A program made the translations under genes and the position numbers. From Haliea sp. E1-2-M8 (lineage in GTDB: Bacteria; Pseudomonadota; Gammaproteobacteria; Pseudomonadales; Halieaceae): a DNA stretch of 64,000 nucleotides. Location: positions 71,416 through 135,415 of the forward strand of contig NZ_JAUTDR010000010.1 in NCBI RefSeq assembly GCF_030649675.1, in the 5' to 3' direction. The notes under the pieces were generated by a model. The model saw only the letters and a program-made list of their open reading frames with translations. It ran no database searches and was not told the origin of the DNA. Position 1 is the stretch's first letter. Each line of letters begins with the position of its first letter. This document shows positions 5,489 to 49,008 of this stretch, one piece after another.

Positions 5489-5504
5489 TGTGCGCAGCCG
5501 CACA
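5489..5504. promoter_or_regulatory. Crp/Fnr-type operator candidate, exact copy
   Basis: Exact palindrome TGTGC-GCAGCC-GCACA, flanked by AA on the left and GAC on the right. The 5-6-5 geometry is that of Crp-family operators. It lies 73 bases before the start of the lmo0937-type gene. See the matching sites at 26000, 27484, 39120 and 48834. Confidence 0.6.
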
Positions 5505-5577
5505 GACGGCAATCGGTGGCTCGTCCATGCTTTTTAGCAATATTGGAATCGGTCATCACAGCGAAGGAATATCCATC

Positions 5578-5727
5578 ATGCTATTTACAATTGCCGTTAT
5601 CCTTGTCGTGCTTTGGGCCTTGGGCTTGGTCTCCGGAACTACCGTAGGCGGTTTCGTTCATATTCTGCTGGTGCTCGCTGTGATTATGGTTGTGTTTCAG
5701 TTGATTAGCGGGCGTCGAGGCCCGTAA
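5578..5727 (+). CDS. lmo0937/DUF5670-family small membrane protein
   Basis: A 49-residue protein with two hydrophobic helices (residues 1-17 and 23-42) separated by a short SGTTVGGF turn and ending in a basic GRRGP tail. This is the pattern of the lmo0937 family of small stress-associated membrane proteins, which have no known reaction. The start at 5578 follows AAGGA with good spacing. A Crp-type palindrome lies 73 bases upstream. Confidence 0.8.
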   Translation: MLFTIAVILVVLWALGLVSGTTVGGFVHILLVLAVIMVVFQLISGRRGP

Positions 5728-5918
5728 GTCCGCTCACGGATTATAGATCAGAGGGCCATGGGCGGAGCGGCACGGCGTATCCTTTGCGCTGCGTATTCCT
5801 TACATGTCACTAGCCTGCCTGTCTATTCGCACTACGGAAAGCCTCGTAGCGATCGCCCCCTGCGGATACCTTCACGCCTCAATATTCCGCAGGCCGAGAT
5901 ACCACTAGCTTGATGGTG

Positions 5919-5924
5919 TAGAAT
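5919..5924 (+). promoter_or_regulatory. candidate -10 box before glucan synthase gene
   Basis: TAGAAT lies 27 bases before the TTG at 5952. No convincing -35 box is seen 16-18 bases upstream, so support is weak. The rest of the 5728-5951 gap shows no gene. Confidence 0.25.
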
Positions 5925-5951
5925 CGTGTCAGACGGCGCGCCTGTTACTTA

Positions 5952-8900
5952 TTGATCGGCCGGCCAGCGTTTGGCAGTGCCCAGCGCGTCCTCCTCAAGG
6001 AGCGTGTCATAGTCATCAAATCGTTCAGAAATTCGGCGCGTACACGAAATGGGCTGAGCCATCATCGGGATACCGAGCTGCTGCGCGCGGAGCTGTTCAG
6101 CATTGAGCAACTGAAGCGTCACGCGGTCACCTTGGCGGGCCAGCATCAAATCGATCCGCGCCCGGGGGCGGACAGGTTGCTGCCGCGGTTGGCGGACAAT
6201 ACGCGCGTTCTGCTGGCGGCCTACGACGTTGTCACGGCTGCAGCAACGCCGGGACAGCGGCTGGTGCCGACCGAAGCCTGGCTGCTCGACAACTTCTATC
6301 TCGTTGAGCAGCAGATCGGCCTGGCACGTCGACATCTTCCGCGCGGGTACAGCCGGCAGTTGCCACGGCTGGCCGATGGCCATTCGGCCGGTTTTCCCCG
6401 TATTTACGACCTGGCGCTGGAATTGATCTCCCATATGGACGGCCGCGTCGACAGCGACAACGTCACCCAATTCATCGCCGCTTACCAGACCGTGGAACCC
6501 TTGAAGCTGGGCGAGTTGTGGGCCTTCCCCATTATGCTGCAGCTCGCGCTGCTGGAAAATCTGCGCCGCGTCGCGGTGCGCATCGCCCAACGACGCGAGG
6601 AACGCGATGCAGCCATTACGTGGGCGGATCGCATGCATGCCGCGGCCGAAAGTGACCCAAAGCAGTTGATCCAGTTACTGGCCGAGTTTGCTCATGCCGA
6701 TGTACCGTTAACCGCGCCATTTGTAGAGGAGTTTTACGACCGCCTGCAGGCGCAGGGCCCGGCCATGGCCTTCGTCCAGACCTGGGTTGAACAGAATCTG
6801 CTGGAACAGGGTGTGACCGCAACGAAGCTGTCGGAGGCGGCCGGACGCACGGCGGCGGCCAACCAGATTTCTATCGCCAACAGCATCGGCAGCCTGCGAT
6901 TCATCGGCTCCATGGACTGGAAACATTATGTCGAGTCGCTCAGTCTCGTAGAAAAGATTTTGCGCGAGGACCCCTCGGACGTATACGCACGGCAGGACTT
7001 CGCTACCCGCGACCGCTACCGGCATGTTGTCGAGGATGTGGCGCGGGGCAGTACCTGTGGTGAGCTGGCGGTGGCACGTGAAGCCGTTGTTCTCGCGCAA
7101 GCGGCTGCCGTACAGCAGGGCGTGCACGACCGCAGCGCTCATGTCGGCTACCACCTGGTCGACCGGGGGCTACCAGGGCTGGAGCGCGCGGTGGGTTGCC
7201 GCGTGGCCTTGCTGCGTCGTGTGCAACGGGTGTGTCGGCGGATCCGCCTGCCCCTGTATCTGGGCCCGATCCTGCTCCTGACCCTGCTCACGACGGTGGG
7301 CCTGGTTGATGCCTTTGCCGGGTCCGCAGCGGATGACTGGCGCTATTGGTTTTTCGCTGCCAGCAGCATGATTGGCGTCTCGGCGCTGGCGGTCGCGCTG
7401 GTAAACCTGGCTGTCACGCTGTTCGTGCCACCGCGAGTCTTGCCACGATTGGATTTTTCACAGGGTATTCCCGATGCTCACCGCAGCATGGTGATCGTTC
7501 CCACCTTGCTGAGCAGTCGGCAGGAGATCGATCATCTGCTGGAGGCTCTGGAGATTCGTTATCTCGGCAACCGGGATCCAAATCTCTACTTTGCCCTGTT
7601 GACGGACTTTCGCGACGCACCCGAGCAAACCTTGCCGGGGGATGCGGACCTGCTCGCTCATGCGCGCGCGGCAGTCGAGGCACTCAACAAGACCTACTGC
7701 GACGACCGCCCCTGCATATTCTATCTTTTCCACCGGCCGCGGCTGTGGAATCCGTTCGAGCGCGTGTGGATGGGCTACGAGCGCAAACGGGGCAAGCTCG
7801 AGCAGTTCAATGCCCGGCTCCGGGGCGAGGCGCCCGAGGCCTTCTCGGACATCGTCGGCGATCAATCCATTCTGGGTTCCATCCAGTACGTCATCACCCT
7901 GGATACGGATACCCAGTTGCCGCGCGACGCGGCACGCGCGCTGATCGGCAACCTGGCGCATCCACTCAACCGGCCGGTGTACGACGACGCCAAGGGTCGT
8001 ATCGTCGAAGGCTACGCCATCCTGCAACCGCGCGCCTCAATCAGCCTGACCAGTGCCGGTCATTCACGCTTCACCCGACTGTTTGCCGGTGACGCGGGCC
8101 TCGACCCCTACACGCGCGAGGTGTCGGATGTTTATCAGGATGTGTTCGGGGAAGGCTCGTTCATCGGCAAGGGCATCTACGACGTCGATGCGTTTCGCCA
8201 GGCTGTCGATGGGCGATTCCCGGAGAATCTCATCCTCAGTCACGACCTGCTGGAGAGCGGTTATGCGCGCTCGGCGCTGGTGACCGACGTCGACCTCATC
8301 GAGGAGCATCCGGCCAGTATCGCCATCGAGGCCAGCCGGCGCCACCGCTGGATACGCGGCGACTGGCAACTTGCCGGCTGGCTGCTGCCCCGGGTGCCGG
8401 GGCCACCCGGTGTGAACGGTGCCAGATCCAGGCGGCAGGCGAATCCACTGTCGGCCCTGTCACTGTGGAAGATTTTCGACAATCTGCGGCGCAGTCTGGT
8501 GCCGCCGGCGCTGCTTGCCCTGCTGGTGGGGGGGTGGTTTGCAGGCCCGGGGCCGGTCTGGGAGTGGACCCTGCTGGTTCTCGCAGTGGTGTTTCTGCCC
8601 ACCCTGTTGGCTAGCCTGATCGAGCTGATTCGCAAGCCTGCAGAGCGCGCCTGGCTGCTGCACCTGAGCCTGACTGCAAGGTCTGCGGGCCGTCCGCTCG
8701 CGCTCGCCTTCCTTGCCCTGGTCTTCCTGCCTTATGACACGCGGATTAGCCTGGGGGCAATCTTGCGCTCGGGCGCGCGCATGCCGTTCACGCGACGCGG
8801 TCTGTTGCTGTGGCAACTGCCCGGCTACAGGCACCTCAACGCGCGCCTTTCACTGATCGATTTTCTTCGTGAAATGTGGGTCGGGCCGGTGCTCGCGATG

Positions 8901-11900
8901 GCGCTGAGCCTAACCCTGGTCATGGCAGACAGCCCACCCGTGGCCTGGCTCGTTGCTGTCCCCCTGTTGTTGTTTTGGCTGGTGTCGCCCGTGGTAGGCT
9001 GGTGGATCAGCCGGCCGCTGGCCATCCCCACCCCAGATTTGAGCAGCAAGCAACAACTTTTCCTGCGGACAGCAGCACGCCGCACCTGGCGCTACTTCGT
9101 GGACTTCGTCGGCCCGGATGACAACTTTCTGCCGCCCGACAACTTCCAGACCTATCCGGCACCGGCCATTGCGTCGCGCACTTCGCCCACCAACATCGGC
9201 ATGTCGCTGCTGGCTGACCTGACTGCGGTAGATTTCGGTTATCTCACCGTCGGCGAATGTCTGCAACGCATTGGCAACACACTCGGCTCGATGGAAAAGC
9301 TGGAACGCTATCGCGGCCATTTGTTCAACTGGTACGACACCCGGACGCTGGAACCGCTGCTCCCGCAATATGTGTCGTCGGTAGACAGCGGCAATCTGGC
9401 GGGTAGCCTGCTTACCCTGCAGGCGGGTTTGGACGAGCTGAAAAACCAGCCGGTGCTCGCGATCAGCGCACTGCAAGGCCTGCAGGACACCCTTCAGGTG
9501 TTGGCCGAGCAGCTTCCCACATCACAGTCCCCCAATCTCGCAAAAAACATCCACCTGCTGCAAGACACTCTGCGTGCCCTTATGCTGCAAGGTCCGCCGC
9601 ATAGCCTGCCTGCTGCCGTGGGTGCACTGGACCAGATTCAGAGTACCTGCGGAGCTTTGGTTGCCGGGTTGCCGCTGGATGTCGATATCGATGGCGAAAT
9701 GGTTTACTGGGCGCGGGCATTCGATCAGCAGTTCCGAGCGCTTCGCGATGAACTTGCATTGCTGGTGCCTGAGTCGTGGCAAGGGAGTACCCTCCCGACC
9801 CGGGTGGAGCTGGCCAGTAAAAATGTCACGGCCGCGCAGGCACAGCTCGACCTCATCGATGATCTGATGAATCGTTGCCGCGTTCTGGCGGAGATGGATT
9901 TCGAATTTCTCTTCGATGTCGGGAGCAGCCTTCTGACCATCGGCTACGACGTCAGTGAACGGCGCCGTGATCCTGCCTGCTACGACCTCCTTGCTTCAGA
10001 AGCGCGCCTGGCCAGTTTTCTGCTTATCGCGCAGGGCCAGGTGCCACAGAAGCACTGGTTCGCGCTCGGTCGTCTGCTGACCAGTCACGGCGGTGACGTC
10101 AGCCTGATTTCCTGGAGCGGCTCGATGTTCGAATACCTGATGCCGCAACTGGTGATGCCGAGCTTCGCAAACACGCTGCTGGATGAGACCTGCAAGGCGG
10201 CAGTATCTCGCCAGATCGAATACGGCCGGCAACGCGGGGTCCCCTGGGGGATTTCCGAATCCTGCTACAATGCCACCGACATGCATCAGGTTTACCAGTA
10301 CCGGGCGTTTGGCGTGCCCGGCCTCGGCTTCAAGCGCGGGCTGGGCGATGACCTGGTGATCGCCCCTTACGCCAGCGCGCTGGCGCTGACGGTGATGCCG
10401 CGGCATGCCTGCCGCAATCTGCAGGTATTGGCTGACCAGGGGTTCCTCGGCGCCTACGGTTTCTACGAAGCCATTGACTACACGCCTACGCGCGTGCCCC
10501 GGGGCAAGCAGCACGCCGTTGTGCGGACCTTCATGGCGCACCATCAGGGTATGAGCCTCCTTGCATTTGCGCATGTATTGTTCGACCGGCCGATGCAGCG
10601 TCGCTTCATGTCCGACCCGCTTGCGCGGGCGACCGAATTATTGCTGCAGGAGAGGGTGCCGAAGAAAGGTGACACTCTGTTTCCGCATGCGGCCGAAGTC
10701 ACCGCTGCCGCCCACCCACCCAGTGCAGAGGTCGGCGCGATCATGCGCATTTTTACCGACCCCAATACGCGACTCCCCGAAGTCCACCTCTTGTCCAATG
10801 GCGGCTACCACGTCATGGCGACCCACGCCGGCGGCAGTTACAGCCGCTGGCGCGATCTCGCGGTGACCCGCTGGCGCGAAGACGCCACCTCCGACGACTG
10901 GGGCACCTATATTTACCTGCGTGATCGCGACAGCGGGCAATACTGGTCGACTGGCTACCAGCCGACCCTGCGTGCGGCAGAATACTACGAAGCGATTTTC
11001 GTCCAGGCCCGGGCAGAATATCGGCGCCGCGACCACGCGATCGAAGCGCACACCGAGATCAGCGTGTCCCCGGAAGACGACGTTGAGATCCGTCGCGTCA
11101 AACTCACGAATCAGTCGCCGCGCACACGTAAAATTGAAGTGACGAGCTATGCAGAGGTGGTGCTGGCGCCACTGAACGCCGACCTGGCACATCGCTCGTT
11201 CAGCAATCTGTTCGTTCAGACTGAAATCCTGCCGGAACAGAAGGCAATTCTCTGCACCCGGCGCCCCCGTACGCCAGGCGAACAGGTGCCCTGGATGTTT
11301 CACTTGCTGTCCGCCCCGGGCGCGGTGTCCGACGAGCCGTCCTATGAGACCGACCGCGCCCGCTTCATAGGGCGTGGTCGTACGACGGCCAATCCGCTAA
11401 AGCTGGACCGGGGAGGCGATCCGTCGACCCTGTCGAACTCGCAGGGTTCGGTGCTCGACCCAATCGTGGCGATCCGGAGCACCCTGACCTTGTCCCCCGA
11501 TGAATCGGCGAACGTGCAGATCATTTCCGGGGTTGCGGACACGCGTGAAGGCGCGCTGGCACTGGTCGAGAAATACTGCGACCGCCATTTCGTCGAGCGC
11601 GCATTCGAGATGGCCTGGTTCAATAGTCAGGAGGTGCTGCGTCACCTGAATGCGACCGAAGCCGATGCCCAGATCTTTGGCCGTCTCGCCAACTCTGTCA
11701 TTTACGGCAACGCCATGCGTCGTGCGGCGCCCGACATCATCGCCCGCAACCAGTTGGGGCAGTCCGGATTGTGGCGCTTTGCGATCTCGGGCGATCTGCC
11801 CATCGTCCTGCTCCACATCGGCGACATCCAGCGCATCGGTCTGGTCAAGCAGGGACTGCAGGCCCACGCCTATTGGCGGATGAAAGGTCTGGCTGCCGAC

Positions 11901-14612
11901 CTGGTGATCGTCAACGAGGATTTCTCCGGCTATCGGGCGGAGCTGCAGGACCTGATCATGGGGCTGATCAATGCGGGACCGGAAGCGCATGTAATCGACA
12001 GGCCGGGGGGGGTCTTCGTGCGGCGGGCCGAAGAGCTTTCCGAAGACGAACGCGTATTGTTGCAGACAGTTGCCCGCATCGTCTTCAGCGACACCGCCGA
12101 AACCCTGATCGAACAGGTGGATCGTCGCGTGTCGCCAGAGCGTGCATCGGACCTGCTGGAGCCTTCGCTGCAGGCGAGTGGTGAATCGGTTTATCCGCTG
12201 GTGCCGCGCGAGCGCATATTTTGCAATGGTCTGGGCGGCTTCACGCCCGATGGCCACGAATACGTCGTCACCCTCGAACCCGGACAGACTACGCCGGCGC
12301 CCTGGGCCAACGTAATCGCCAGCCCGCACATCGGCACAGTTGTCAGCGAGAGCGGCAGCGCCTACACCTGGGTGGAAAACGCGCACGAGTTCCGCCTCAC
12401 CCCCTGGCACAACGACCCGGTCTCCGACAGCAGCGGTGAAGCGCTCTACATCCGCGACGAAGCAACCGGCAGATTCTGGTCGCCGACGCCGCTGCCAGCG
12501 CAGGGCCGCTCCGGGTATGTTTGCCGGCACGGCTTCGGCTATAGTGCGTTCGAGCATCTGGAGGCCGACATCGCCTCAGAACTTTACACCTATGTGGCCA
12601 TGGATGCGCCGGTCAAGTTCCTGGTGGTCAAGCTGCGCAACCAATCGCAGCGTACACGCAGCCTGTCGCTAACCGGGTACTGGGAGCTGGTGCTCGGCGA
12701 GTGGCGGCACTCCAACCTCATGCATATTGTCACCGAAATCGATCCGAACACTGGCGCGCTGTTCGCCCACAATGCCTATGGTCGCGAGTGCGGCGACCGG
12801 GTGGTATTCGCGCAGGCCAGTGAGCGCGAGCGGTCGGTGAGCGGCAATCGCACGGAGTTCATCGGCCGCAACGGCTCGCTCGCCAGCCCTGCGGCGATGC
12901 GCAGGAAGCGTCTATCGGGCAGGACAGGCGCAGGCCTCGATCCGTGCGCCGCGATACAGACCCGGGTGGAACTCGACGCGGGCCAGGAGCAAGAGATCGT
13001 ATTTGTCTTCGGGGCGGCGGCCAACCCCGACGAAGCGCGGCGGTTCATCCAACAGTTCGGCGGACGAGCGGGCGCGAGGCGGGCCCTGGAAGCGGTGTGG
13101 GAATACTGGAACCACACCCTGGGCGCGGTGAACGTGGACACGCCGGATCCTGCGCTCAACGTGCTGGCCAATGGCTGGCTGGTCTATCAAACCCTGTCCT
13201 GCCGATTGTGGGGACGCAGCGGCTATTACCAGTCCGGCGGCGCCTACGGCTTCCGCGACCAACTGCAGGACACCATGGCGCTAATCCACGCGACACCGTG
13301 GCTCGCCCGCGAGCAGTTGCTGCGGCACGCCAGTCGACAGTTCATCAAGGGCGACGTGCAGCATTGGTGGCACCCACCCAACGGACAGGGCGTACGCACC
13401 CATTTCTCCGATGACTATCTGTGGCTGCCTTATGCCACCTGCCGGTACGTACGGGCCACCGGCGATACCGGGGTGCTCGACGAGCCCATCCATTTCCTTG
13501 AAGGACGCGAGTTGTGTGCGGAGGAGGAAGCCTATTACGACCAGCCGCAGCGCTCGTCGGAAGTGGCCAGCCTGTACGAGCACTGCCTGCGTGCCCTCAA
13601 GTACGGCCTGCGCTTCGGCCCCCATCAGTTGCCGCTGATGGGCTGCGGCGACTGGAATGACGGCATGAATCTCGTCGGCAAGGACGGCCGTGGCGAGAGC
13701 GTGTGGCTGGCCTGGTTCCTGGTCGAGAACCTCGATCTGTTTGCCGGCCTGGCGCGCGACCGCAATGATCAGGAATTTGCCGAGCTGTGCAGCGCTCACT
13801 CGGCACAGCTGCGCAGCAACATCGAGGCTCAGGCCTGGGATGGCGGCTGGTATCGGCGCGCCTGGTTCGACGATGGCACTCCCTTGGGTTCGACCAGTAA
13901 CGACGAATGCCAGATCGATTCGATCAGTCAGAGCTGGGCGGTCATCTCCAAAGGCGGCGATCCACTGCGCGCGCGGCAGGCGATGCTGGCGGTGGACCAG
14001 CGCCTGGTGCGACGCGAAAAGCAGATCATCCAGTTGCTGGACCCGCCTTTTGACAAATCAGACCTGGAGCCAGGCTACATCAAGGGCTACATCCCGGGCG
14101 TGCGCGAGAACGGCGGCCAGTATACCCATGCCGCGATCTGGGCCACGATGGCATTTGCCATGATGGACGACAGGGAGCGCGCCTGGGAGCTCTACGCCAT
14201 GCTGAATCCCGTCAATCACGGCAGCACGCCTGAGACCATCGAACGCTACAAGGTTGAGCCCTATGTCATGAGCGCAGACATCTATGGTGTGGCGCCCCAC
14301 ATCGGCCGCGGCGGCTGGACCTGGTATACCGGGGCAGCGGGCTGGATGTACCGGCTGACCCTGGAAACCCTGTTGGGTGTGCAACTGGAAGTGGACCATC
14401 TGCGCATTGCGCCCTGTGTCCCGGACAACTGGGAAGCCTACAAAATCCACTACCGTTTTGGTGAGACGGTCTACCACATTACCATCAGGCCTACCGGCGG
14501 CCCGTCAAGGCAGGTGACCCGCGTGGCGGTGGACGGTACCGAGGCTCCCGATACTCTCATTCCGCTGGTCGATGACCGCCGGGAGCACTTTGTCGAGGTG
14601 GACCTGGGCTAG
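5952..14612 (+). CDS. ndvB: cyclic beta-1,2-glucan synthase (NdvB/Cgs family)
   Basis: A 2,886-residue inner-membrane enzyme that builds cyclic beta-1,2-glucan from UDP-glucose for the periplasm. An N-terminal region is followed by membrane helices near 435-510. A GT84/GT2-like transferase core spans about 510-820 with LDTDTQ near 650 and RHRWIRGDWQ near 800. More helices lie at 845-1020. The C-terminal 1,300 residues hold two carbohydrate-binding-type segments (near 1610 and 2095) and a GH94 phosphorylase-like domain with GDWNDGMN near 2565, which in this family controls ring size. The length fits rhizobial homologues. No ATG or GTG exists near the N-terminus, so the TTG at 5952 is a tentative start. 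An AAGGAG at 5997 has no usable start codon after it. Confidence 0.93.
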   Translation: MIGRPAFGSAQRVLLKERVIVIKSFRNSARTRNGLSHHRDTELLRAELFSIEQLKRHAVTLAGQHQIDPRPGADRLLPRLADNTRVLLAAYDVVTAAATPGQRLVPTEAWLLDNFYLVEQQIGLARRHLPRGYSRQLPRLADGHSAGFPRIYDLALELISHMDGRVDSDNVTQFIAAYQTVEPLKLGELWAFPIMLQLALLENLRRVAVRIAQRREERDAAITWADRMHAAAESDPKQLIQLLAEFAHADVPLTAPFVEEFYDRLQAQGPAMAFVQTWVEQNLLEQGVTATKLSEAAGRTAAANQISIANSIGSLRFIGSMDWKHYVESLSLVEKILREDPSDVYARQDFATRDRYRHVVEDVARGSTCGELAVAREAVVLAQAAAVQQGVHDRSAHVGYHLVDRGLPGLERAVGCRVALLRRVQRVCRRIRLPLYLGPILLLTLLTTVGLVDAFAGSAADDWRYWFFAASSMIGVSALAVALVNLAVTLFVPPRVLPRLDFSQGIPDAHRSMVIVPTLLSSRQEIDHLLEALEIRYLGNRDPNLYFALLTDFRDAPEQTLPGDADLLAHARAAVEALNKTYCDDRPCIFYLFHRPRLWNPFERVWMGYERKRGKLEQFNARLRGEAPEAFSDIVGDQSILGSIQYVITLDTDTQLPRDAARALIGNLAHPLNRPVYDDAKGRIVEGYAILQPRASISLTSAGHSRFTRLFAGDAGLDPYTREVSDVYQDVFGEGSFIGKGIYDVDAFRQAVDGRFPENLILSHDLLESGYARSALVTDVDLIEEHPASIAIEASRRHRWIRGDWQLAGWLLPRVPGPPGVNGARSRRQANPLSALSLWKIFDNLRRSLVPPALLALLVGGWFAGPGPVWEWTLLVLAVVFLPTLLASLIELIRKPAERAWLLHLSLTARSAGRPLALAFLALVFLPYDTRISLGAILRSGARMPFTRRGLLLWQLPGYRHLNARLSLIDFLREMWVGPVLAMALSLTLVMADSPPVAWLVAVPLLLFWLVSPVVGWWISRPLAIPTPDLSSKQQLFLRTAARRTWRYFVDFVGPDDNFLPPDNFQTYPAPAIASRTSPTNIGMSLLADLTAVDFGYLTVGECLQRIGNTLGSMEKLERYRGHLFNWYDTRTLEPLLPQYVSSVDSGNLAGSLLTLQAGLDELKNQPVLAISALQGLQDTLQVLAEQLPTSQSPNLAKNIHLLQDTLRALMLQGPPHSLPAAVGALDQIQSTCGALVAGLPLDVDIDGEMVYWARAFDQQFRALRDELALLVPESWQGSTLPTRVELASKNVTAAQAQLDLIDDLMNRCRVLAEMDFEFLFDVGSSLLTIGYDVSERRRDPACYDLLASEARLASFLLIAQGQVPQKHWFALGRLLTSHGGDVSLISWSGSMFEYLMPQLVMPSFANTLLDETCKAAVSRQIEYGRQRGVPWGISESCYNATDMHQVYQYRAFGVPGLGFKRGLGDDLVIAPYASALALTVMPRHACRNLQVLADQGFLGAYGFYEAIDYTPTRVPRGKQHAVVRTFMAHHQGMSLLAFAHVLFDRPMQRRFMSDPLARATELLLQERVPKKGDTLFPHAAEVTAAAHPPSAEVGAIMRIFTDPNTRLPEVHLLSNGGYHVMATHAGGSYSRWRDLAVTRWREDATSDDWGTYIYLRDRDSGQYWSTGYQPTLRAAEYYEAIFVQARAEYRRRDHAIEAHTEISVSPEDDVEIRRVKLTNQSPRTRKIEVTSYAEVVLAPLNADLAHRSFSNLFVQTEILPEQKAILCTRRPRTPGEQVPWMFHLLSAPGAVSDEPSYETDRARFIGRGRTTANPLKLDRGGDPSTLSNSQGSVLDPIVAIRSTLTLSPDESANVQIISGVADTREGALALVEKYCDRHFVERAFEMAWFNSQEVLRHLNATEADAQIFGRLANSVIYGNAMRRAAPDIIARNQLGQSGLWRFAISGDLPIVLLHIGDIQRIGLVKQGLQAHAYWRMKGLAADLVIVNEDFSGYRAELQDLIMGLINAGPEAHVIDRPGGVFVRRAEELSEDERVLLQTVARIVFSDTAETLIEQVDRRVSPERASDLLEPSLQASGESVYPLVPRERIFCNGLGGFTPDGHEYVVTLEPGQTTPAPWANVIASPHIGTVVSESGSAYTWVENAHEFRLTPWHNDPVSDSSGEALYIRDEATGRFWSPTPLPAQGRSGYVCRHGFGYSAFEHLEADIASELYTYVAMDAPVKFLVVKLRNQSQRTRSLSLTGYWELVLGEWRHSNLMHIVTEIDPNTGALFAHNAYGRECGDRVVFAQASERERSVSGNRTEFIGRNGSLASPAAMRRKRLSGRTGAGLDPCAAIQTRVELDAGQEQEIVFVFGAAANPDEARRFIQQFGGRAGARRALEAVWEYWNHTLGAVNVDTPDPALNVLANGWLVYQTLSCRLWGRSGYYQSGGAYGFRDQLQDTMALIHATPWLAREQLLRHASRQFIKGDVQHWWHPPNGQGVRTHFSDDYLWLPYATCRYVRATGDTGVLDEPIHFLEGRELCAEEEAYYDQPQRSSEVASLYEHCLRALKYGLRFGPHQLPLMGCGDWNDGMNLVGKDGRGESVWLAWFLVENLDLFAGLARDRNDQEFAELCSAHSAQLRSNIEAQAWDGGWYRRAWFDDGTPLGSTSNDECQIDSISQSWAVISKGGDPLRARQAMLAVDQRLVRREKQIIQLLDPPFDKSDLEPGYIKGYIPGVRENGGQYTHAAIWATMAFAMMDDRERAWELYAMLNPVNHGSTPETIERYKVEPYVMSADIYGVAPHIGRGGWTWYTGAAGWMYRLTLETLLGVQLEVDHLRIAPCVPDNWEAYKIHYRFGETVYHITIRPTGGPSRQVTRVAVDGTEAPDTLIPLVDDRREHFVEVDLG

Positions 14613-15861: not shown

Positions 15862-15863
15862 TC

Positions 15864-16259
15864 CTAGCTTTTGGCGTAGTAGGACTCGACGGACGAGTTC
15901 CAGGTGGGGTCTGCCATGTCCGGCCATTTATCCTTGTCGAAGCCGGGTGCGTTCTTCAGCCGTTCGACATCTACGTCAAGCAGAAACCGTTTGTTTTCCC
16001 TGTCGTGCTTCAGGGCTTTCCAGGGAACTGCAAACAGACGATCACCCATGCCCAGAAAACCGCCGGACGCCAGGACGGCGTAGCGAATTTCACCCTCCGA
16101 TATATCTATCATGAGGTCCTGTATATTGCCGAGCTTTTCATCCTGCATGTTACAGACGTCATCGCCGGCGATAGTGTCAGCACTGAGCAACGTGACCGCG
16201 GGGTTCATATCATTGGTGGTACTGGTTCTGTTGCTCGATGGTGTCAGTGTAGAAGTCAT
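15864..16259 (-). CDS. PRC-barrel domain protein
   Basis: A 131-residue soluble protein. A Ser/Thr-rich leader of about 20 residues precedes one PRC-barrel domain (IAGDDVCNMQDEKLGNIQDLMID, then ASGGFLGMGDRLFAVPWKAL). The C-terminal stretch DPTWNSSVESYYAKS is typical of the stress-type PRC proteins. It overlaps the CsbD gene by four bases and is followed at once by the AI-2E-type permease, so the three genes probably form one operon. No enzymatic role is known. Confidence 0.85.
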   Translation of the reverse strand: MTSTLTPSSNRTSTTNDMNPAVTLLSADTIAGDDVCNMQDEKLGNIQDLMIDISEGEIRYAVLASGGFLGMGDRLFAVPWKALKHDRENKRFLLDVDVERLKNAPGFDKDKWPDMADPTWNSSVESYYAKS

Positions 16260-16456
16260 TTATGGTCCCTTGTGGTTGATTTTGCGGCATTCTTGACATC
16301 ACTCTTGATGTCACCGTACTTGGATTCCGCTTTACCCCCATGTTTTTCAGCTTTACCCTTGAGCTCGGTACTTTTATCACCGGTGATTTTTCCGGCAGTC
16401 TCTTTGACTTTGCCCTTGGCCTCGTTCACGCGGCCTTTGACTTGATTCTCGTTCAT
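16256..16456 (-). CDS. CsbD family general-stress protein
   Basis: A 66-residue, highly charged and Lys/Glu-rich protein beginning MNENQVKGRVNEAKGKVKE, the signature of the CsbD family. These proteins are induced by stress, and their mechanism is unknown. ATG 16456 has GGAG nine bases upstream. It is the first gene of the CsbD, PRC-barrel, AI-2E-permease unit, with ATGA overlap to the second gene. Confidence 0.88.
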   Translation of the reverse strand: MNENQVKGRVNEAKGKVKETAGKITGDKSTELKGKAEKHGGKAESKYGDIKSDVKNAAKSTTRDHK

Positions 16457-16586
16457 GAGCTGATCTCCAGGTGGTGGTTGCGTGTGGGATGTGTCCCTTT
16501 TCTGCATAGGCGTAGTTGCAGGGCGACGTCGGTAATATGACTGACGCACTGGAGCTGGTCGGTGCGTTGTCGAACGTACCCGAAGT

Positions 16587-18960: not shown

Positions 18961-19301
18961 TGCTTCCGCCGCGACGACCTGTCTGGCAGGGAATTGTTGG
19001 TCGAGTGGCGCCGAAGAGGCACGTTGTAAGTCACGGTATGAGGTCCTTTTTCAGCATGATTGAAATCGGCTGATAGCGGCGCAGGGGTTTTCGAATCTGG
19101 TGAGGGCACAGTATGGTTTTTGCCGGTAAAATGATCTGTACGTTAAGACACAGAGGTCTGCAGAGGATTGATGAGTCGTGCTGCAGTGCAAGCGCTCACC
19201 TGGCCGTGTGAGCGCCAGCGAACGGAGTCGGCCCCTGGTGGCGGCTAACGTTGGCGAATCGGCCGGTTGCCCTGGGGGTTCCAAAATGAAGCAAACACAG
19301 C
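18961..19301. other. divergent intergenic region with 8-bp inverted repeat
   Basis: This is the gap between the Anbu and antiporter genes, which are transcribed apart. It contains GCGCTCAC at 19192-19199 and its perfect complement GTGAGCGC at 19208-19215 with an 8-base loop, about 90 bases before the antiporter start. It could be an operator or a leader hairpin. No gene was recognised. Confidence 0.45.
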
Positions 19302-22005: not shown

Positions 22006-22388
22006 TTCGGCTCTTGCTCGTTGTTGTCCGTGAGACCTTGGCTGAGTGCCCATTCCATTCCAGGTATGAGGTCCAATTAGCCCAGGAATCGCTGGTTACA
22101 GATTTGCAGGGACTTCGAGGCAGCCGCAGAGTAAGTAGGGTGCAGGATGGCTGTAATGCAGTCAGTGCGCTGTCACACTTAGCGCACACCAGATCTCTGC
22201 TTCTCCCCCACTTAAACGTGACTTCATCAGGCCGACTGTCTGTCAACGCACAGAAAGCCCTTGTCAGCAGCGCAATAATCATCGTCACAGTGCGTAAGAC
22301 TGAGCGTGGATTACTGCGACCAGGTCGATGTTCCCGCCGTTACGCTGACAATTGTTGGTTCAATCCCCCATCTCCACGGAGCAGCACC
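22006..22388. other. divergent intergenic region between GGDEF and katE genes
   Basis: No gene was recognised. It contains an inverted repeat, GTGCGCT at 22165-22171 and AGCGCAC at 22181-22187, with a 9-base loop. The spacing differs from the Crp-type sites elsewhere in the window, so it may be an unrelated operator or hairpin controlling the catalase gene. Confidence 0.4.
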
Positions 22389-36981: not shown

Positions 36982-38196
36982 CTAGCCTGACGCAGCGCTT
37001 GCCATTTCCCGCTTGTCGTCAAAGTACTGATAGCCGTTGCGACCTTTTTCCTTGGCGCTGTACATGGCGTTATCTGCGTTCTGCATTAACGTGTCAGCAT
37101 CAAGCCCGTTGTCCGGGTACACACTGATGCCGATACTCAGGCTGACCTGGACCTCATGGCCATCGATAATGCGGGGCAGGGCAAACTTGGCCAACAGCTT
37201 TTCGGCGACATGGGCCGAATCCCGCATCTCTTCAATTTCCGTCAACAGGATAACGAACTCGTCACCACCGTGGCGGCTGACCGTATCCGTCGTGCGCACG
37301 CAGGACAGGATGTCCTCCGCCACCTCCCGCAACAACTGATCGCCGATCGCGTGGCCATAGGCATCATTGATTTGCTTGAAATAATCGAGATCCAGAAACA
37401 GCAGCGCAAGTTGCTTGCCGTGCCGATTTGCCATGCCCATGGCCTGGGTGAGTCGCTCCATGAGCAGTACGCGATTGGGCAGGCAGGTAAGGGAATCGTG
37501 TTGGGCGAGATGGCTCATCTTTTTCATCACCGAGATGGATTGGCGCGCGTCGTGGAATACGATGACTGCACCGGCCAGCTTTCCCTTGCGATTGCGGATT
37601 GGCGCCGCTGAATCCTCGATCTCCAGGTCAGTGCCGTCGCGCCGGATCAGTACGCTGCCCAGGGCCAGTTCCACGATTTGGTTCTGACTGATCGCCCGCT
37701 GGGAGGGGCTGATCCTGGGTTCTCGGCTGGTGCCATCGACAATGCAAAAGACTTCCTCGACCGGACGTCCCACCGCCAGTTGGCTCGACCAGCCGGTCAG
37801 CGTCTCTGCCACCTTGTTGAGATAGATGATTGTGCCTTTGGGATCGACGACAAGTACCGCGTCGCCGATGGCGTCGAGGGTGATTTGCGCCATGTCTTCG
37901 AAGGAGACATCACCTAAAGCGTCTGTGGCAGGCTCGCGATCACGCGTCGCGTGCGGCTGCTCCGGGCCTGGACCCATGCCCAGGACTCCCTCCCAAGTGC
38001 AGTTGATGTCTTTCTTGTGGCTGCACTGGTAGTGCCTGACTGGCAGGACCAGGCTCAGGAGCCTGTCCAGTGACTGACATCGAATTCGAACCACGGGTCC
38101 CCCGCACCAAGGGCATGCCGGCTGCGTTCTGGACGGGCGAGCGCAGACAACGGGCCAAGTTGTCAGGGGTCTGGATGTGTTCGCAGCTCTGTGCAT
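36982..38196 (-). CDS. diguanylate cyclase, zinc-ribbon-PAS-GGDEF
   Basis: A 404-residue protein. Near the N-terminus two Cys pairs (CPWCGG, then YQCSHKKDINCTWEG) look like a small zinc ribbon. A PAS domain follows (TLDAIGDAVLVVDPKGTIIYLNK) and then a GGDEF domain with an intact RHGGDEF site. The inhibitory RxxD motif (RTTD) is at the usual distance. It should synthesise cyclic di-GMP in response to a signal read by PAS. The zinc ribbon argues for the full frame from ATG 38196; a start after the ribbon is possible. Confidence 0.85.
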   Translation of the reverse strand: MHRAANTSRPLTTWPVVCARPSRTQPACPWCGGPVVRIRCQSLDRLLSLVLPVRHYQCSHKKDINCTWEGVLGMGPGPEQPHATRDREPATDALGDVSFEDMAQITLDAIGDAVLVVDPKGTIIYLNKVAETLTGWSSQLAVGRPVEEVFCIVDGTSREPRISPSQRAISQNQIVELALGSVLIRRDGTDLEIEDSAAPIRNRKGKLAGAVIVFHDARQSISVMKKMSHLAQHDSLTCLPNRVLLMERLTQAMGMANRHGKQLALLFLDLDYFKQINDAYGHAIGDQLLREVAEDILSCVRTTDTVSRHGGDEFVILLTEIEEMRDSAHVAEKLLAKFALPRIIDGHEVQVSLSIGISVYPDNGLDADTLMQNADNAMYSAKEKGRNGYQYFDDKREMASAASG

Positions 38197-38260
38197 TCTG
38201 GTGATGCTAAAGACGCAACACTATCCAGTCTGTGCGGAAGCCCACGCAGGGCCTGCGGAG

Positions 38261-38995
38261 TCAACGGGTCTTGGGCTTGTAGGCCAACAATCGGTCTGAC
38301 TCCCTTTTTACCACCTCATAACATTCACAGGCGAGCTCCGTAAGCTGAACCCGGTCCAGAACCTTTATCCGCCCACGCTTGTACTCGATGATCCCGAGCT
38401 TTTGCAGTTTGCCCGCTGCCTCCGTAACCCCCTCCCGGCGTACGCCGAGCATGTTCGCAATCAGTTCCTGCGTCATGACGAGTTCGGGGCCGCTCAGGCG
38501 GTCCAGGGACAGCAACAACCAGCGGCACAGTTGCTGGTCGATGGTGTGGTGACGATTACATACCGCGGTCTGGGCCATCTGGGTAATCAGGGACTGGGTA
38601 TAGCGCAGCATGACAAAAAGCAGTTCACCGTGGCGGTTGAACTCGTCCTTGAGCCGCTGTCCCATCAGGCGGTAGGCGTAGCCGGCGCTCTGCACAACCC
38701 CACGACTGGGGGTGCTTTCGCCCCCCATGAACAGGGAAACACCCACAATCCCCTCGTTGCCAACCACCGAGATTTCCGCCGACTGGCCGCTTTCCATGAC
38801 GTAGAGCAGAGAGACGATGCTGTCGACGGGGAAATAAACGTACCGCAGGGTATCCCCGGATTCATACAGCGCCTGGCCAAGGGTCAGCGGCACCAGTTCC
38901 AGGAAGGGGAAGATGCGCTCCTGCACCTCTGCGGACAAACAGTCCAGAAGGTGATTTTGCTTGGGATTCTGGTTCGCATTGGTGGCCGGAATCAT
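38261..38995 (-). CDS. Crp/Fnr family transcriptional regulator
   Basis: A 244-residue regulator. Residues 20-130 form a cyclic-nucleotide-binding-type barrel (VYFPVDSIVSLLYVMESG, VGNEGIVGVSLFMGG) that lacks the canonical cAMP-pocket residues. A winged helix-turn-helix follows (MTQELIANMLGVRREGVTEAAGKLQKLG). The Arg and Glu that read TGTG half-sites in Crp are kept (RRE). It is divergent from the sugar-transferase gene, and an exact TGTGC-N6-GCACA palindrome lies between them. It resembles the second regulator at 47922. Confidence 0.9.
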   Translation of the reverse strand: MIPATNANQNPKQNHLLDCLSAEVQERIFPFLELVPLTLGQALYESGDTLRYVYFPVDSIVSLLYVMESGQSAEISVVGNEGIVGVSLFMGGESTPSRGVVQSAGYAYRLMGQRLKDEFNRHGELLFVMLRYTQSLITQMAQTAVCNRHHTIDQQLCRWLLLSLDRLSGPELVMTQELIANMLGVRREGVTEAAGKLQKLGIIEYKRGRIKVLDRVQLTELACECYEVVKRESDRLLAYKPKTR

Positions 38996-39119: not shown

Positions 39120-39135
39120 TGTGCGATTTCGCACA
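39120..39135. promoter_or_regulatory. Crp/Fnr-type operator candidate, exact copy
   Basis: Exact TGTGC-GATTTC-GCACA, extended by one pair to an arm of six (A/T). It lies 124 bases before the Crp/Fnr gene and 127 before the likely sugar-transferase start, so it could control both. Confidence 0.6.
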
Positions 39136-39262
39136 TACGTTGCGGACTGCAGGTCACTGCAGCAAGCAGTCTTCGCGATAATGTGCCTCACCGTACATAC
39201 ATCAAATTTGCAGAGTCTTAGTATCTCGCCTCCGTTGCTCATGGTGCATGGAGCTTTTCGCA

Positions 39263-40684
39263 ATGATCGCTGGAAACCTGGTTGGATTACGGCATTTAAA
39301 TCATCGAGTTCATGTCACATATTCCTGGTTAGTTGTAGTTGATGCCGTACTTTTTTTCGCCGCCTGCTATCTGGCGACGTGGCTATATTATATGCCGCGG
39401 CAGGTATCGTTGTCCGAACACCTCTCGATACTTCCGTATCAGGCACTGGTTTTCACAGGCGTGACTGTACTTGCGATGCTCTCCATGGGGCTCTACCAAC
39501 CGCGCCTGCGGGAAGGTGCCAACGGCATATTTCTGCGCACAGTTGGCGCTTTCATGCTGATGGTCAGTGGGATGATGGCGATCATTTATCTGGTGCCAGC
39601 TCTGCAACTCGCTCCTGCTGTGTTGCTCTACGCCGCTGCGCTGGCTTTTGTATCAAGCTTGCTGACCCGCGAACTGTTCAGCAACACCGTGAAGCAGGAA
39701 CAGTTCAACCGCCGGGTGCTGGTCATTGGCACCGGGCGGATGGCCAACAACATAGCGCGCAAGATGCGTCGTACCAGCGACCGCCATGGGTTTCGCATCT
39801 GTGGCTATTTACGTGTGCCGGGAGAAACCACCGCAGTTGAATCGGTCAACATCCTTACCATGAAGCAGTGCCTGTTCGATTATGTGCGGCAACAGAATAT
39901 TCATCAGGTCGTGGTGGCGTTAGACAATCAACACGACAGTATTCCCGCTGAGGAGCTACTCCGCTGCCGGATGGGTGGGGTGTCGGTGCTTGGTATTCTC
40001 GACTTTTTTGAGCAGGAAGCCGGTAAGGTGCTGGTGGAAGATGCACCTCCCGAGTGGTTCATCTTCGCCCGGGGCTTCAAACGCCAGCTCGCAGGCAGAG
40101 CAGCAAAAAGGCTGTTTGATCTCTGTGGAGCGCTGTTCCTGTTACTTCTCACCTGGCCTGTGATGTTGCTCACTGTCCTGGCGATCAAGATAGAAGACGG
40201 GATCCGCGCTCCGGTGATTTTTCGACAGCAGCGTGTGGGACTGAACGGCGTCGTGTTCAGCGTAATGAAGTTTCGCAGCATGACGGTTGACGCAGAAAGC
40301 GACGGCAAGGCGCGCTGGGCGGCAGCAAACGATGCCAGAGTGACGCGGGTCGGGAAACTGATCCGCAAACTGCGTATTGATGAGTTGCCGCAGATCTTCA
40401 ATGTGCTGGCAGGAAATATGGCCCTGGTCGGTCCGCGCCCAGAACGCCCCGAATTTGTCTGCGAGCTGTGCAGGGAAATTCCTTACTTCGACAATCGTCA
40501 CAGTGTAAAACCGGGCATCACCGGCTGGGCGCAGCTGAACTATCCCTATGGCGCGTCAGTGGCCGATGCCAGGCACAAGCTGGAATATGATTTGTACTAT
40601 GTGAAGAACCAGAGCCTGTATCTGGATTTTATGGTCTTGCTGCAGACTGTTGAAGTGGTGTTGTTTGGCAAGGGAGCGCACTAG
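39263..40684 (+). CDS. XrtA/PEP-CTERM-type sugar transferase (TIGR03013)
   Basis: A 473-residue membrane glycosyltransferase that starts exopolysaccharide synthesis by moving a sugar phosphate onto undecaprenyl phosphate. Four or five N-terminal helices and a nucleotide-fold domain (RRVLVIGTGRMANNIARKM) precede the bacterial sugar-transferase domain. That domain shows KRLFDLCGALFLLLL, KFRSMTVDAE, LRIDELPQIFNVLAGNMALVGPRPERPEF and KPGITGWAQLNY. No other exosortase or EPS gene is in the window. ATG 39263 is preferred because GGAG lies nine bases before it; ATG 39248 has no good ribosome site. Confidence 0.9.
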   Translation: MIAGNLVGLRHLNHRVHVTYSWLVVVDAVLFFAACYLATWLYYMPRQVSLSEHLSILPYQALVFTGVTVLAMLSMGLYQPRLREGANGIFLRTVGAFMLMVSGMMAIIYLVPALQLAPAVLLYAAALAFVSSLLTRELFSNTVKQEQFNRRVLVIGTGRMANNIARKMRRTSDRHGFRICGYLRVPGETTAVESVNILTMKQCLFDYVRQQNIHQVVVALDNQHDSIPAEELLRCRMGGVSVLGILDFFEQEAGKVLVEDAPPEWFIFARGFKRQLAGRAAKRLFDLCGALFLLLLTWPVMLLTVLAIKIEDGIRAPVIFRQQRVGLNGVVFSVMKFRSMTVDAESDGKARWAAANDARVTRVGKLIRKLRIDELPQIFNVLAGNMALVGPRPERPEFVCELCREIPYFDNRHSVKPGITGWAQLNYPYGASVADARHKLEYDLYYVKNQSLYLDFMVLLQTVEVVLFGKGAH

Positions 40685-45643: not shown

Positions 45644-46018
45644 GCTGGTATTCCTCGTCTTATATATGATGGCGCCGGCCAAATATCGCTGATCCGGGCA
45701 GCCAACAGCAACCCGGATGGGCACGATATTATACTTGCTAGGCGCAAACAAGCAAAATATTCGGGCTTGAGGGGCCCGGCTGGAAGGGCGCGCATCCACT
45801 GTTGTCGAGGGCGTAGTGGGCATCCCGGTTGCCTGCGAGCATGCGCTGTCGCCGCAGGAATCTCTGTTGGTAAACGAACACAGGGTTTGAATTACGGACA
45901 CCTGCAAGGTGTGCCAGCGTACCGACGTCCACCGCGTTAACTTTCATTATGTCTTGGGTGCAGTACGCCACGGTGGTCGCTGAGAGCCACCACGTCATTG
46001 AAATCCGGGAGAGAGCTC
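45644..46018. other. divergent intergenic region
   Basis: This is the gap between the monooxygenase and DUF3309 genes. A minus-strand TATAAT at 45728-45733 with TTTGCT 17 bases upstream could be the monooxygenase promoter. No gene and no exact Crp-type palindrome were seen. Confidence 0.35.
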
Positions 46019-46177
46019 ATGAGTGTAGGAACAATTCTGCTGATCGTACTGATATTGCTGTTGATAGGGGTGATTCCCAGTTGGCCCCACAGCCGCCAAT
46101 GGGGCTACGGTCCGAGTGGCGCTATTGGGGTGATCGTACTGGTATTGGTTGTATTGCTGTTGATGGGAAAAATCTGA
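46019..46177 (+). CDS. DUF3309 family small membrane protein
   Basis: A 52-residue protein with two strongly hydrophobic helices (GTILLIVLILLLIGVIP and GAIGVIVLVLVVLLLMG) joined by SWPHSRQWGYGPS, the full DUF3309 pattern. Function unknown. GGGAGAGAG lies before the ATG, and the stop codon overlaps the start of the next gene (ATGA arrangement), so the two are coupled. Confidence 0.85.
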   Translation: MSVGTILLIVLILLLIGVIPSWPHSRQWGYGPSGAIGVIVLVLVVLLLMGKI

Positions 46178-46557: not shown

Positions 46558-46561
46558 ACCC

Positions 46562-46954: not shown

Positions 46955-47316
46955 GTGCGAAGCGTGAAAGTATTGCAGCGCGGCGACGGATGCTGATCGG
47001 CGAAATAGCCCGGCAGCGTCAGTCCCTGGGGCAGGAGGTGGCCTCGTGGGCTGCGCCTCTGGCGGTGGTTGACCAGGGCCTGAACGTGTTGCGCTATGTC
47101 AAGCGCCACCCAATAATGGCGACTGTAGCGGTTTCGCTGCTGCTCAAGTTGCGCCGTGGTGGGCGAACTACCACATGGCTTAGCCGCGGTCTGATCGCCT
47201 GGCGGTTGATCGACAGGTTTAATGGCCTGGGGAGAGGCGATGGGGGGCGCGCAGCCCATCGACGCGGTGATGAGGCAAAAGAACCCGGGTTGCTGCGCCA
47301 GCAGCCCGTGGCCTGA
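46951..47316 (+). CDS. YqjK-like protein
   Basis: A 121-residue basic protein with RRRMLIGEIARQRQSLGQEV at the N-terminus and a hydrophobic centre (HPIMATVAVSLLLKLRR). Its place after yqjD- and yqjE-like genes and the charge pattern suggest YqjK. The GTG start overlaps the preceding stop, which indicates coupling. The C-terminal GRGDGGRAAHRRGDEAKEPG is low complexity. Function unknown. Confidence 0.65.
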   Translation: MSAKRESIAARRRMLIGEIARQRQSLGQEVASWAAPLAVVDQGLNVLRYVKRHPIMATVAVSLLLKLRRGGRTTTWLSRGLIAWRLIDRFNGLGRGDGGRAAHRRGDEAKEPGLLRQQPVA

Positions 47317-47322
47317 ATTGCT

Positions 47323-47787
47323 TTACCTTTGCTGGTCGGCCCGCATCAGGGCCGCATCGCGGTCAGCGGTCAGCCGCGCTTTTTCGGCGGCAAACTGTGC
47401 ATCCGCCTCGCTCTTGCAGGCCTTCTTTTCGAGATCCTCCAGGGCATCGCACTTCTCGGTTTCGATATCGTAGCGGCCTTCAGCTTCGGCCTTCGCGATC
47501 TCGAATTCAGCCCGCACTTTTTCGCTCATTGCCCCGGACTCGGCTGCAGCGAGATCCTCACGGCTGTCCTTGCTGCTGCTACTGTAGCTGTCCCTCGCCG
47601 AAGCCATATCCCTCTCCGAATCCTCATGGTTTTCCCGCGCATCCTCCTTGGCTTCCCGGACCTCCTCAAACGCATCCGAACGGGCCTCCGCCACATCTCC
47701 GGCCGTACTCGACGCGTCTTGATCACACCCTGTAATGGCGAGGCCGAGGCTTGCCGCAGCGAGCAGGGATAATAGCTGCTGATTCAT
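47323..47787 (-). CDS. coiled-coil lipoprotein
   Basis: A 154-residue lipoprotein with lipobox ITGC after a 19-residue leader. The mature part is highly charged, rich in Ala, Glu, Asp and Arg (VAEARSDAFEEVREAKEDAREN onward), and probably a long coiled coil. Two Cys residues lie near the C-terminal part (EKCDALEDLEKKACKSE). Function unknown. A degenerate Crp-type half-match lies at 47873-47888, too weak to list as a site. Confidence 0.75.
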   Translation of the reverse strand: MNQQLLSLLAAASLGLAITGCDQDASSTAGDVAEARSDAFEEVREAKEDARENHEDSERDMASARDSYSSSSKDSREDLAAAESGAMSEKVRAEFEIAKAEAEGRYDIETEKCDALEDLEKKACKSEADAQFAAEKARLTADRDAALMRADQQR

Positions 47788-47921
47788 TGCACGTACTCCT
47801 GAGCGAATGGGAATAACTTGCCGAGGCTTGCACCCGGAATCACCGATGGTGGACCGCGGGCAATCCTGCGTCTGTATGGTGTCGCACTGAGTGTTTCGCT
47901 GGCCGGTGGTATGCCCTCGGG

Positions 47922-48641
47922 TCAAGGTAGCAGGCGTGCATATCCGTCCATTACCATGCCATAGCAGTCGCAGGACTCGGCTTCCAGGGCCTTGCGGTCA
48001 AGGATCGAAATGTGGCCTCGGGTGTAGTGAATGATGTTTGCCCGCTGCAGGTGACCCGCAGCGATAGTGACACCGCCTCGCTGCACGCCCAGCATGTCGG
48101 CGAGAACCTGGTGGGTCAGATGAAAGTGGTCGCTGTGGGCCCGGTCGTGGACTGTCAGCAGCGCGCGTGCCAGCCGCGCAGCAACATCGTGGAAGCGAAA
48201 ACAGGTAGCGGTTTGGGTCAGTTGCAGAATCATTACATACAGGTAGTGCTTGAGGTAGCGCGCCGCGACGGGGCTATGCTTCAGAATCTCCAGTAGCTCC
48301 CGGGGTGGCATTTGCAGCGCCGTTCCTGAGGCCTGTACCACGCTGCGCTCGGGTGCCACATCGACCCCGAGCAGAACGGTCACGCCGAGCATTCCTTCGT
48401 TACCTATCTGCTCGGTTTCAATGGACTGATGACCGTTCAGCACTTTCACCATGCTGATCACCCCGGACATTGGAAAGTACACATGCTGGAACGGCGTTTC
48501 CGATTCACACAATACATGGCCCACCTGCAACTCGACCTGCTCGCAATGGGCCATGAAATGGGCGTGTTCCAGTGGTGGCAATTTCTCGATCAGCCGGTTG
48601 GCAATGGGCGCCGTTGTTGGCAGCGGGCTTGAAGTTTGCAT
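47922..48641 (-). CDS. Crp/Fnr family transcriptional regulator
   Basis: A 239-residue regulator built like the one at 38261. The barrel has VLCESETPFQHVYFPMSGVISMV and IGNEGMLGVTVLLGVD. The helix-turn-helix is THQVLADMLGVQRGGVTIAAGHLQRAN. The two proteins share the G-V-T-x-A-A-G pattern in the recognition helix, so they may bind related sites. This one keeps the Arg but has Gly where the other has the Glu. An exact TGTGC-N6-GCACA palindrome lies 192 bases upstream. Confidence 0.9.
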   Translation of the reverse strand: MQTSSPLPTTAPIANRLIEKLPPLEHAHFMAHCEQVELQVGHVLCESETPFQHVYFPMSGVISMVKVLNGHQSIETEQIGNEGMLGVTVLLGVDVAPERSVVQASGTALQMPPRELLEILKHSPVAARYLKHYLYVMILQLTQTATCFRFHDVAARLARALLTVHDRAHSDHFHLTHQVLADMLGVQRGGVTIAAGHLQRANIIHYTRGHISILDRKALEAESCDCYGMVMDGYARLLP

Positions 48642-49008
48642 TATCACCTCGTGCGTCCTGAACTCGAGTCGGGATGGCCTGGTGCGTCGTGGAGGGTGTG
48701 CATAACCCGGCGCAACCCAAGTATCGTTCGACTGAGCGCGAGTATCTGTTCGTTTACACACAAATGCCTGCTTCATTCACGCGATTCTCCCAGCGGCCTG
48801 CGAGCGGACAGCGGCGTCGCAACGACCGGCCAATGTGCTCGAGCGCACAGACGCGTGCGCACCTCGGGGGTCATGCTGGATGAGGTCGACTGCGAGAGGG
48901 GCTCGGTACATTGGTGCCGGGCAGTGGCGTTTATGTCCTTCGAATTGTCGCCCAGGTCAGAAATTCATCGGCCACCCGGTAGTGGTGGCGACAACGAGGC
49001 AGGACAAC
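48642..49008. other. divergent intergenic region holding a Crp-type site
   Basis: This is the gap between the Crp/Fnr gene and the DUF4398 lipoprotein gene. Beyond the palindrome at 48834 no gene or other structure was recognised. Short frames here have no family likeness. Confidence 0.45.
48834..48849. promoter_or_regulatory. Crp/Fnr-type operator candidate, exact copy
   Basis: Exact TGTGC-TCGAGC-GCACA with flanks CAA and GAC, nearly the same flanks as the site at 5489. It lies between a Crp/Fnr gene and the DUF4398 lipoprotein gene, so it may serve autoregulation or the outward gene. Confidence 0.6.

Follow-up and report, generated by a model that had tools for sequence, protein, structure and literature searches.

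A candidate Crp/Fnr operator and a probable, locally confined stress regulon in Haliea sp. E1-2-M8

A 64-kb stretch of the genome of Haliea sp. E1-2-M8 (contig NZ_JAUTDR010000010.1, positions 71,416 to 135,415; this whole stretch is called the window) carries two genes for Crp/Fnr-family regulators, crpA and crpB, and a palindrome that recurs ahead of small stress genes. The palindrome is likely to serve as operator for a stress regulon confined to this region, in which a Crp/Fnr dimer, most likely of CrpA, would activate about fifteen promoters. The CrpA dimer would bind TM-TGTNCG-NTAN-CGNACA-KA centred at −41.5 and contact RNA polymerase as class II Crp does, activating promoters from about 5.4 to 48.9 kb of the window, crpA's own included and probably that of crpB. 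The products would be envelope, oxidative and general stress proteins, and sensing of the trigger would not involve cAMP but perhaps three cysteines that are invariant.

Operator sites in relatives and in the window

In an earlier note on this DNA the palindrome had been described as TGTGC-N6-GCACA. The exact copies that it placed at 5489, 39120 and 48834 are there, as are near copies at 27484 (one mismatch) and 26000 (two mismatches); the likeness of the flanks at two sites (AATGTGC and GCACAGAC) and the spacing of 70–74 bases to the lmo0937, GlsB and small lipoprotein genes are also correct. As a definition of the motif, TGTGC-N6-GCACA was nevertheless dropped. The own genome (4.84 Mb) has eight exact places, three of them in the window, against one for the reversed pattern, and 115 places with at most one mismatch against 58, a gap that may in part be one of composition as the reversed pattern contains other dinucleotides. 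Allowing up to two mismatches leaves the window with 34 copies, fewer than the roughly 45 expected, which makes the bare core a weak definition. The five exact copies outside the window all score below 8 bits under the refined matrix described below and look like chance occurrences. The palindrome is real, but TGTGC is one form of a variable half-site.

The refined operator was learnt from relatives. The best 80 of at least 588 CrpA relatives, whose titles are mostly those of Gammaproteobacteria as broadly defined by GTDB, were retained, and a matrix was trained on the DNA upstream of their crpA genes, no window DNA being used. The fixed form TGTGCGNNNNCGCACA, compared with this DNA before training, agreed at no fewer than 11 of its 12 positions ahead of 22 of the 80 crpA genes, compared with 0.9% of 1423 control stretches; where 10 matching positions sufficed, the figures were 43 genes and 4.6%. 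The matrix gave TM-TGTNCG-NTAN-CGNACA-KA, in which half-site position 4 varies (G, A or T) and C5 and G6 are fixed. Its best site exceeded 8 bits at 54 of the 80 crpA loci, an in-sample figure, against 5.6% of 1429 control stretches. Eight of the 26 loci lacking a site of their own (L055, L056, L057, L060, L065, L066, L087 and L100, seven of them titled Pseudomonas) have one before an 8-kb frame that precedes crpA. This frame, identified by its size in the eight loci, is probably a GH94-type glucan synthase, as at 5952..14612 of the window, behind lmo0937; the glucan synthase family was seen by tblastn in 24 loci overall.

Across the 80 loci, 185 sites exceed 16 bits, against 0–6 for ten column-permuted matrices. 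The intergenic enrichment that the earlier note had asked for is present in the relatives: of the 128 sites away from crpA promoters, 103 are intergenic according to a rough gene caller (longest open frames), by which intergenic DNA makes up 17% of the loci. Of 33 relatives' genomes searched whole, 24 contain the strict form TGTNCGNTANCGNACA, with 50 occurrences in all; the reversed control occurs 7 times.

In the window, 15 sites exceed 12 bits, compared with one in 240 kb of own-genome DNA (twelve control stretches) and none in the 79 kb that flank the window on its contig. Five of the 15 (22237, 26000, 27484, 45865 and 47873) were first marked as coding; inspection by hand placed them ahead of the likely true starts. 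The divergent pairs 19137/19209, 39120/39182 and 45865/45908 provide one site per side. Sites are dense in the island and almost absent from the sampled own-genome DNA, yet the own genome as a whole shows no enrichment of the relaxed refined core (35 places against 29 for the reversed form), so the signal is local. A genome-wide regulon in Haliea sp. E1-2-M8 was also considered and is not supported, the counts being mixed (8 against 1, 115 against 58 and 35 against 29, with one matrix site in 240 kb).

Three further sites were noted elsewhere in the own genome. A 28.9-bit operator with a −10, at C12:32050 in locus L196 (C12:31051–33050), lies far from the island, near a frame resembling a nucleotide-sugar dehydrogenase by eye, and a 15.1-bit site with a −10 lies at C17:43813 (L198); these two may be outlying members of the regulon. 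A 26.1-bit site at C89:113598 (L199) has no good −10.

Promoter layout

A −10 hexamer, which played no part in finding the sites, was sought with a weight table. Over 398 site-directions in the 80 loci, −10 hits peaked 28–29 nt from the palindrome centre, with 63 hits at these two offsets and a mean of 3.6 at each other offset (p = 4e-38). Of the 18 window sites that score above 10 bits, 15 show a −10-like hexamer, in one or both directions, at an offset of exactly 29 nt from the centre; other offsets average 1.4 hits and none has more than 5. The exceptions are 1123, 22164 and 48834. An offset of 28–29 nt puts the palindrome centre at −40.5 or −41.5 relative to start sites predicted from the sequence, which is the class II Crp layout, and a class II site centred at −41.5 would imply activation.

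The site takes the place of a −35 box, and this would suit a repressor as well: the protein would block the −35 region and stress would lift the block. Repressor sites, however, usually scatter around the promoter, and a centre fixed near −41.5 over many promoters is the layout of a class II activator. A repressor operator is, for this reason, considered quite unlikely and activation is preferred.

The spacing also bears on whether the palindromes were simply chance ones noticed in a long window. The absence of an excess at two mismatches and of genome-wide enrichment of the relaxed refined core would be in keeping with chance, but for the refined motif the independent −10 spacing, the conservation in relatives and the density in the window leave that explanation with next to no credibility.

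CrpA, CrpB and known regulators

Both regulators are Crp/Fnr proteins, as the earlier note had it: PF00027 and PF13545 score above cut-off in each. Its statement that both keep the Arg by which Crp reads TGTG half-sites also holds, R187 of CrpA being invariant in an alignment of 47 sequences, four B-type proteins among them, and aligning with an Arg of NtcA and of 3dv8. Of its two exact sites beside the regulator genes, 39120 is at crpA as described, but 48834 faces the DUF4398 lipoprotein gene and has no −10 toward crpB. For crpB, whose start was judged by eye to be probably near 48647, the likely site is a separate and weaker one at 48747, which has its −10 at offset 29.

The link to these regulators, previously offered as conjecture, is now supported, at the level of sequence comparison, by the conserved sites at crpA and by co-occurrence. 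In 143 genomes, one per listed family, a CrpA-type protein (E of 1e-60 or better) is found in 16 and lmo0937 in 11, with both in 10 (Fisher 1.2e-10); one of the 16, G176, scores like CrpB (218 bits). The 16 CrpA-bearing genomes contain 25 occurrences of the strict motif (in 11 of them) and the 127 others contain 15 (in 15), against 5 and 23, respectively, for the reversed control. The lmo0937 gene of the genome without CrpA has no site above 16 bits, and the same genome has one strict match elsewhere.

CrpB, or a heterodimer of CrpA and CrpB, could instead be the main reader of the operator, CrpA alone being a modulator. A B-like gene is present in 32 of the 80 crpA loci (in 29 of these at least 42% identical to CrpB), CrpB-like genes adjoin crpA in G002, G010 and G029, operator sites lie between the A and B genes in several loci, and CrpB-type proteins retain R187. 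Against this, 27 of the 54 crpA loci with a site of their own have no B-like gene in the fetched DNA, some of these loci being short, and the recognition helix is almost invariant in CrpA over the 80 loci (G-V-R-R-E-G-V-T-E/D) and varied among the four B proteins read. These two observations favour CrpA as the putative reader and make CrpB an unlikely one. The CrpB query also matches crpA (118 copies in the 80 loci), and its site count was not used.

Ordinary cAMP-Crp sites, bound by the global Crp of the host, were the other candidate. Crp shares with CrpA the superfamily fold, the HTH_Crp_2 domain and the Arg of the recognition helix, and the centre near −41.5 of its class II promoters is that of the window promoters. 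The operator of Crp is TGTGA-N6-TCACA, which the TGTG form of the half-site resembles, and similar palindromes are held by G004 and G007, in which CrpA has no match. The operator TGTNCG-N4-CGNACA, with a half-site whose position 4 varies and whose C5 and G6 are fixed, is unlike that of cAMP-dependent Crp, however, and the strict motif tracks the presence of CrpA-type proteins and clusters around the crpA gene, the sites being concentrated in the island. On the form and distribution of the motif, host Crp is a very improbable reader, and CrpA remains the presumed binder.

The proteins differ too. At the place of Arg185 of Crp, 77 of 80 CrpA sequences have Glu, Asp or Gln; such a change would be in keeping with a half-site that has lost its G at position 4 and gained C5-G6. 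Cys146, Cys223 and Cys225 are present in all 80 loci and are the only invariant cysteines in the 47 aligned sequences; C146 is located close to where the long helix ends. That these cysteines respond to a thiol or metal signal is a guess. The phosphate-binding cassette of Crp reads G-E-L ... R-S/T-A; by sequence, G79-N80-E81 and S97-R98 of CrpA lie near the places of this cassette. The predicted structure of CrpA has a Crp-type fold (pLDDT 89.7) with a C-terminal helix after the wing that is extra relative to Crp. The nearest solved folds are M. tuberculosis CRP, FNR, GlxR and NtcA, the E. coli CAP-DNA structure 1zrf ranking 45.

FNR, FixK and FnrN share the superfamily fold with CrpA. There is no invariant N-terminal cysteine in the 47-sequence alignment to correspond to the Fe-S cluster cysteines of FNR/FnrN, and the FnrN/FixK motif, given as TTGANCNNGATCAANG in PMC4999443, differs from the island operator. 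NtcA, whose recognition-helix Arg aligns with that of CrpA, is the best NCBIfam name match, but CrpA scores 26.2 bits against a cut-off of 244.95 for TIGR03697. The NtcA site is GTA-N8-TAC, and no nitrogen-assimilation gene is among the named window targets.

Matches to CrpA above 300 bits were found in five of 38 genomes (the own genome and 37 relatives), the own genome being one of the five. It contains four copies above 300 bits and a fifth at 271 bits. The four further genes lie at C67:161537 (L028), C67:176165 (L037), C19:24654 (L034) and C10:59613 (L036), and the 20-kb regions around them hold 2, 3, 3 and 0 sites: the C67 and C19 regions carry operators and the C10 region has none. In addition, two metagenome assemblies titled Klebsiella pneumoniae (L064 and L067) carry the crpA locus; the titles look doubtful.

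Target genes and significance

Conservation of the targets was scored by whether the 300 nt ahead of each gene copy in the relatives' loci contain a site of more than 12 bits. A site precedes 10 of 10 lmo0937 genes, 19 of 27 glucan synthase genes, 7 of 10 DUF3309 genes, 5 of 6 PRC genes and the single XrtA-type glycosyltransferase gene (1/1), the baseline for called genes of at least 150 aa being 123 of 867, targets included. The conservation upstream of orthologues that the earlier note had called for is thus found for lmo0937, glucan synthase, PRC and DUF3309, but fails for the Na+/H+ exchanger (0/3). No copies of the GlsB, proteasome-like, transglutaminase-like, DUF892, AI-2E transporter or kynureninase genes were found in the relatives' loci.

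A number of observations weigh against a CrpA-controlled island regulon. The site is less regular ahead of other targets in these loci (DUF4398, 4/7; BON, 9/16; CsbD, 2/3; catalase, 1/2), and besides the exchanger it is absent at a second PRC type (0/2), YqjK (0/1) and a holin-X/YqjE-like gene (0/1). Among the 14 lmo0937 genes in the 143-genome sample, just five, one of them that of the window, have a site scoring over 16 bits. Eighteen of the 80 crpA loci have neither a site of their own nor one before the 8-kb frame. In the own genome the lack of enrichment of the relaxed refined core is joined by the two strict-motif matches, both of which fall outside the window, and the four other CrpA-like genes could read the same sites. 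TGTGCGNNNNCGCACA is not enriched in the 38 genomes (10 occurrences against 11 for the reverse), most of which lack CrpA, and position 4, open in the matrix, is fixed in this form. Four of these ten occurrences are in G004 and G007, which belong to the same genus; two of the four, one in each genome, are the same 18.4-bit palindrome at position 1501 (L040 and L039, respectively), and a regulator other than CrpA may read a similar site there. On balance, the local regulon that the earlier note had proposed is supported in its refined form by the density of sites in the island and their recurrence upstream of orthologues.

The sites and the genes that they face are collected in Table 1.

Table 1 Regulator genes, operators and associated genes in the window (target names from Pfam/NCBIfam)
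Feature	Position	Strand	Details
crpA, Crp/Fnr-family regulator, 244 aa, presumed activator of the island	38261..38995	-	Pfam HTH_Crp_2 and cNMP_binding
crpB, second Crp/Fnr regulator, about 37% identical to CrpA	47922..48776	-	Pfam
Weak candidate operator, gene 1264..1845 (OprF-like, just below Pfam cut-off)	1123..1138	+	12.6 bits; -10 not at offset 29
Operator, lmo0937-family gene	5489..5504	+	16.6 bits; -10 CATGCT at 5526-5531
lmo0937-family small membrane protein, 49 aa	5578..5727	+	NF033488
Operator, CsbD gene (16256..16456) then PRC-barrel gene (15864..16259)	16561..16576	-	16.9 bits; -10 CATATT
Operator, presumed operon from 18960 leftwards	19137..19152	-	19.7 bits; -10 CATACT; operon inferred from gene order
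Genes of the presumed operon: proteasome-beta-like, N-formylglutamate amidohydrolase-like, transglutaminase-like	from 18960 leftwards		proteasome-beta-like: TIGR03634 E 2e-4, below cut-off
Operator, Na+/H+ exchanger gene (19302..20627)	19209..19224	+	16.4 bits; -10 TAACGT
Weak candidate operator, PAS-GGDEF gene (20656..22053)	22164..22179	-	11.8 bits; poor -10
Operator, catalase gene (frame to 24779)	22237..22252	+	13.9 bits; -10 AATAAT; weaker -10 TTAAGT toward GGDEF gene (22053, -)
Operator, GlsB-like gene (25659..25925)	26000..26015	-	13.6 bits; -10 TAACCT
Operator, 54-aa lipoprotein-like gene (27249..27413; no Pfam match)	27484..27499	-	24.3 bits; -10 CATGAT
Operator, PRC-barrel gene (28419..29087)	29144..29159	-	11.4 bits; -10 TACCTT
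Operator, PAS-GGDEF gene (36982..38196)	38231..38246	-	13.4 bits; -10 TAGCAT; implied start at annotated ATG
Operator, crpA promoter	39120..39135	-	23.6 bits; -10 TAACAT at 39093-39098
Operator, XrtA-type glycosyltransferase gene (39248..40684)	39182..39197	+	17.1 bits; -10 TAGTAT
Operator, FMO-like oxidoreductase gene (44015..about 45650)	45865..45880	-	15.5 bits; -10 CATGCT; gene start inferred
Operator, DUF3309 gene (45998..46174)	45908..45923	+	13.2 bits; -10 CATTAT
Operator, gene 47323..47787 (no Pfam match)	47873..47888	-	15.8 bits; -10 CACCAT; gene start inferred
Probable operator, crpB	48747..48762	-	10.4 bits; -10 GATACT
Operator facing DUF4398 lipoprotein gene (49009..49428)	48834..48849	+	15.3 bits; -10 CATGCT at offset 30, one base off

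Other features of the window were noted in passing. At 33146..34694 a HelD-like start (33146..33523) overlaps, in another frame, a longer frame that looks like a helicase by eye (33411..34694); a broken gene or a slip in the sequence may account for this. A methyltransferase at 34688..35335 resembles the C-terminal half of bacterial Hen1 (below cut-off) and is followed at 35353..36981 by a match, also below cut-off, to part of glutamate synthase.

No description of the motif or of the regulon was found in the literature searched, subscription journals lying outside its scope and the slash form of Crp/Fnr being unsearchable; this is weak evidence for the novelty of the regulon. A Crp/Fnr subfamily with a half-site of its own and a predicted island-confined class II regulon looks new within the known superfamily. 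A broader and decidedly tentative proposal is that a widespread but undescribed subfamily, CrpA, often with CrpB, acts as a master activator that would sense redox state or a metal, and not a nucleotide, through Cys146, Cys223 and Cys225, would read TGTNCG with the Glu that stands for Arg185 of Crp, and would switch on the island through its uniform class II promoters.

Small stress proteins of the lmo0937, CsbD, DUF3309, DUF4398, PRC-barrel and GlsB types are common, and little is known of how they are controlled. In species that bear CrpA, these proteins gain a candidate regulator, a candidate operator and a predicted promoter layout, and the results draw attention to a subfamily of Crp/Fnr regulators in which the half-site is altered and three cysteines are invariant.

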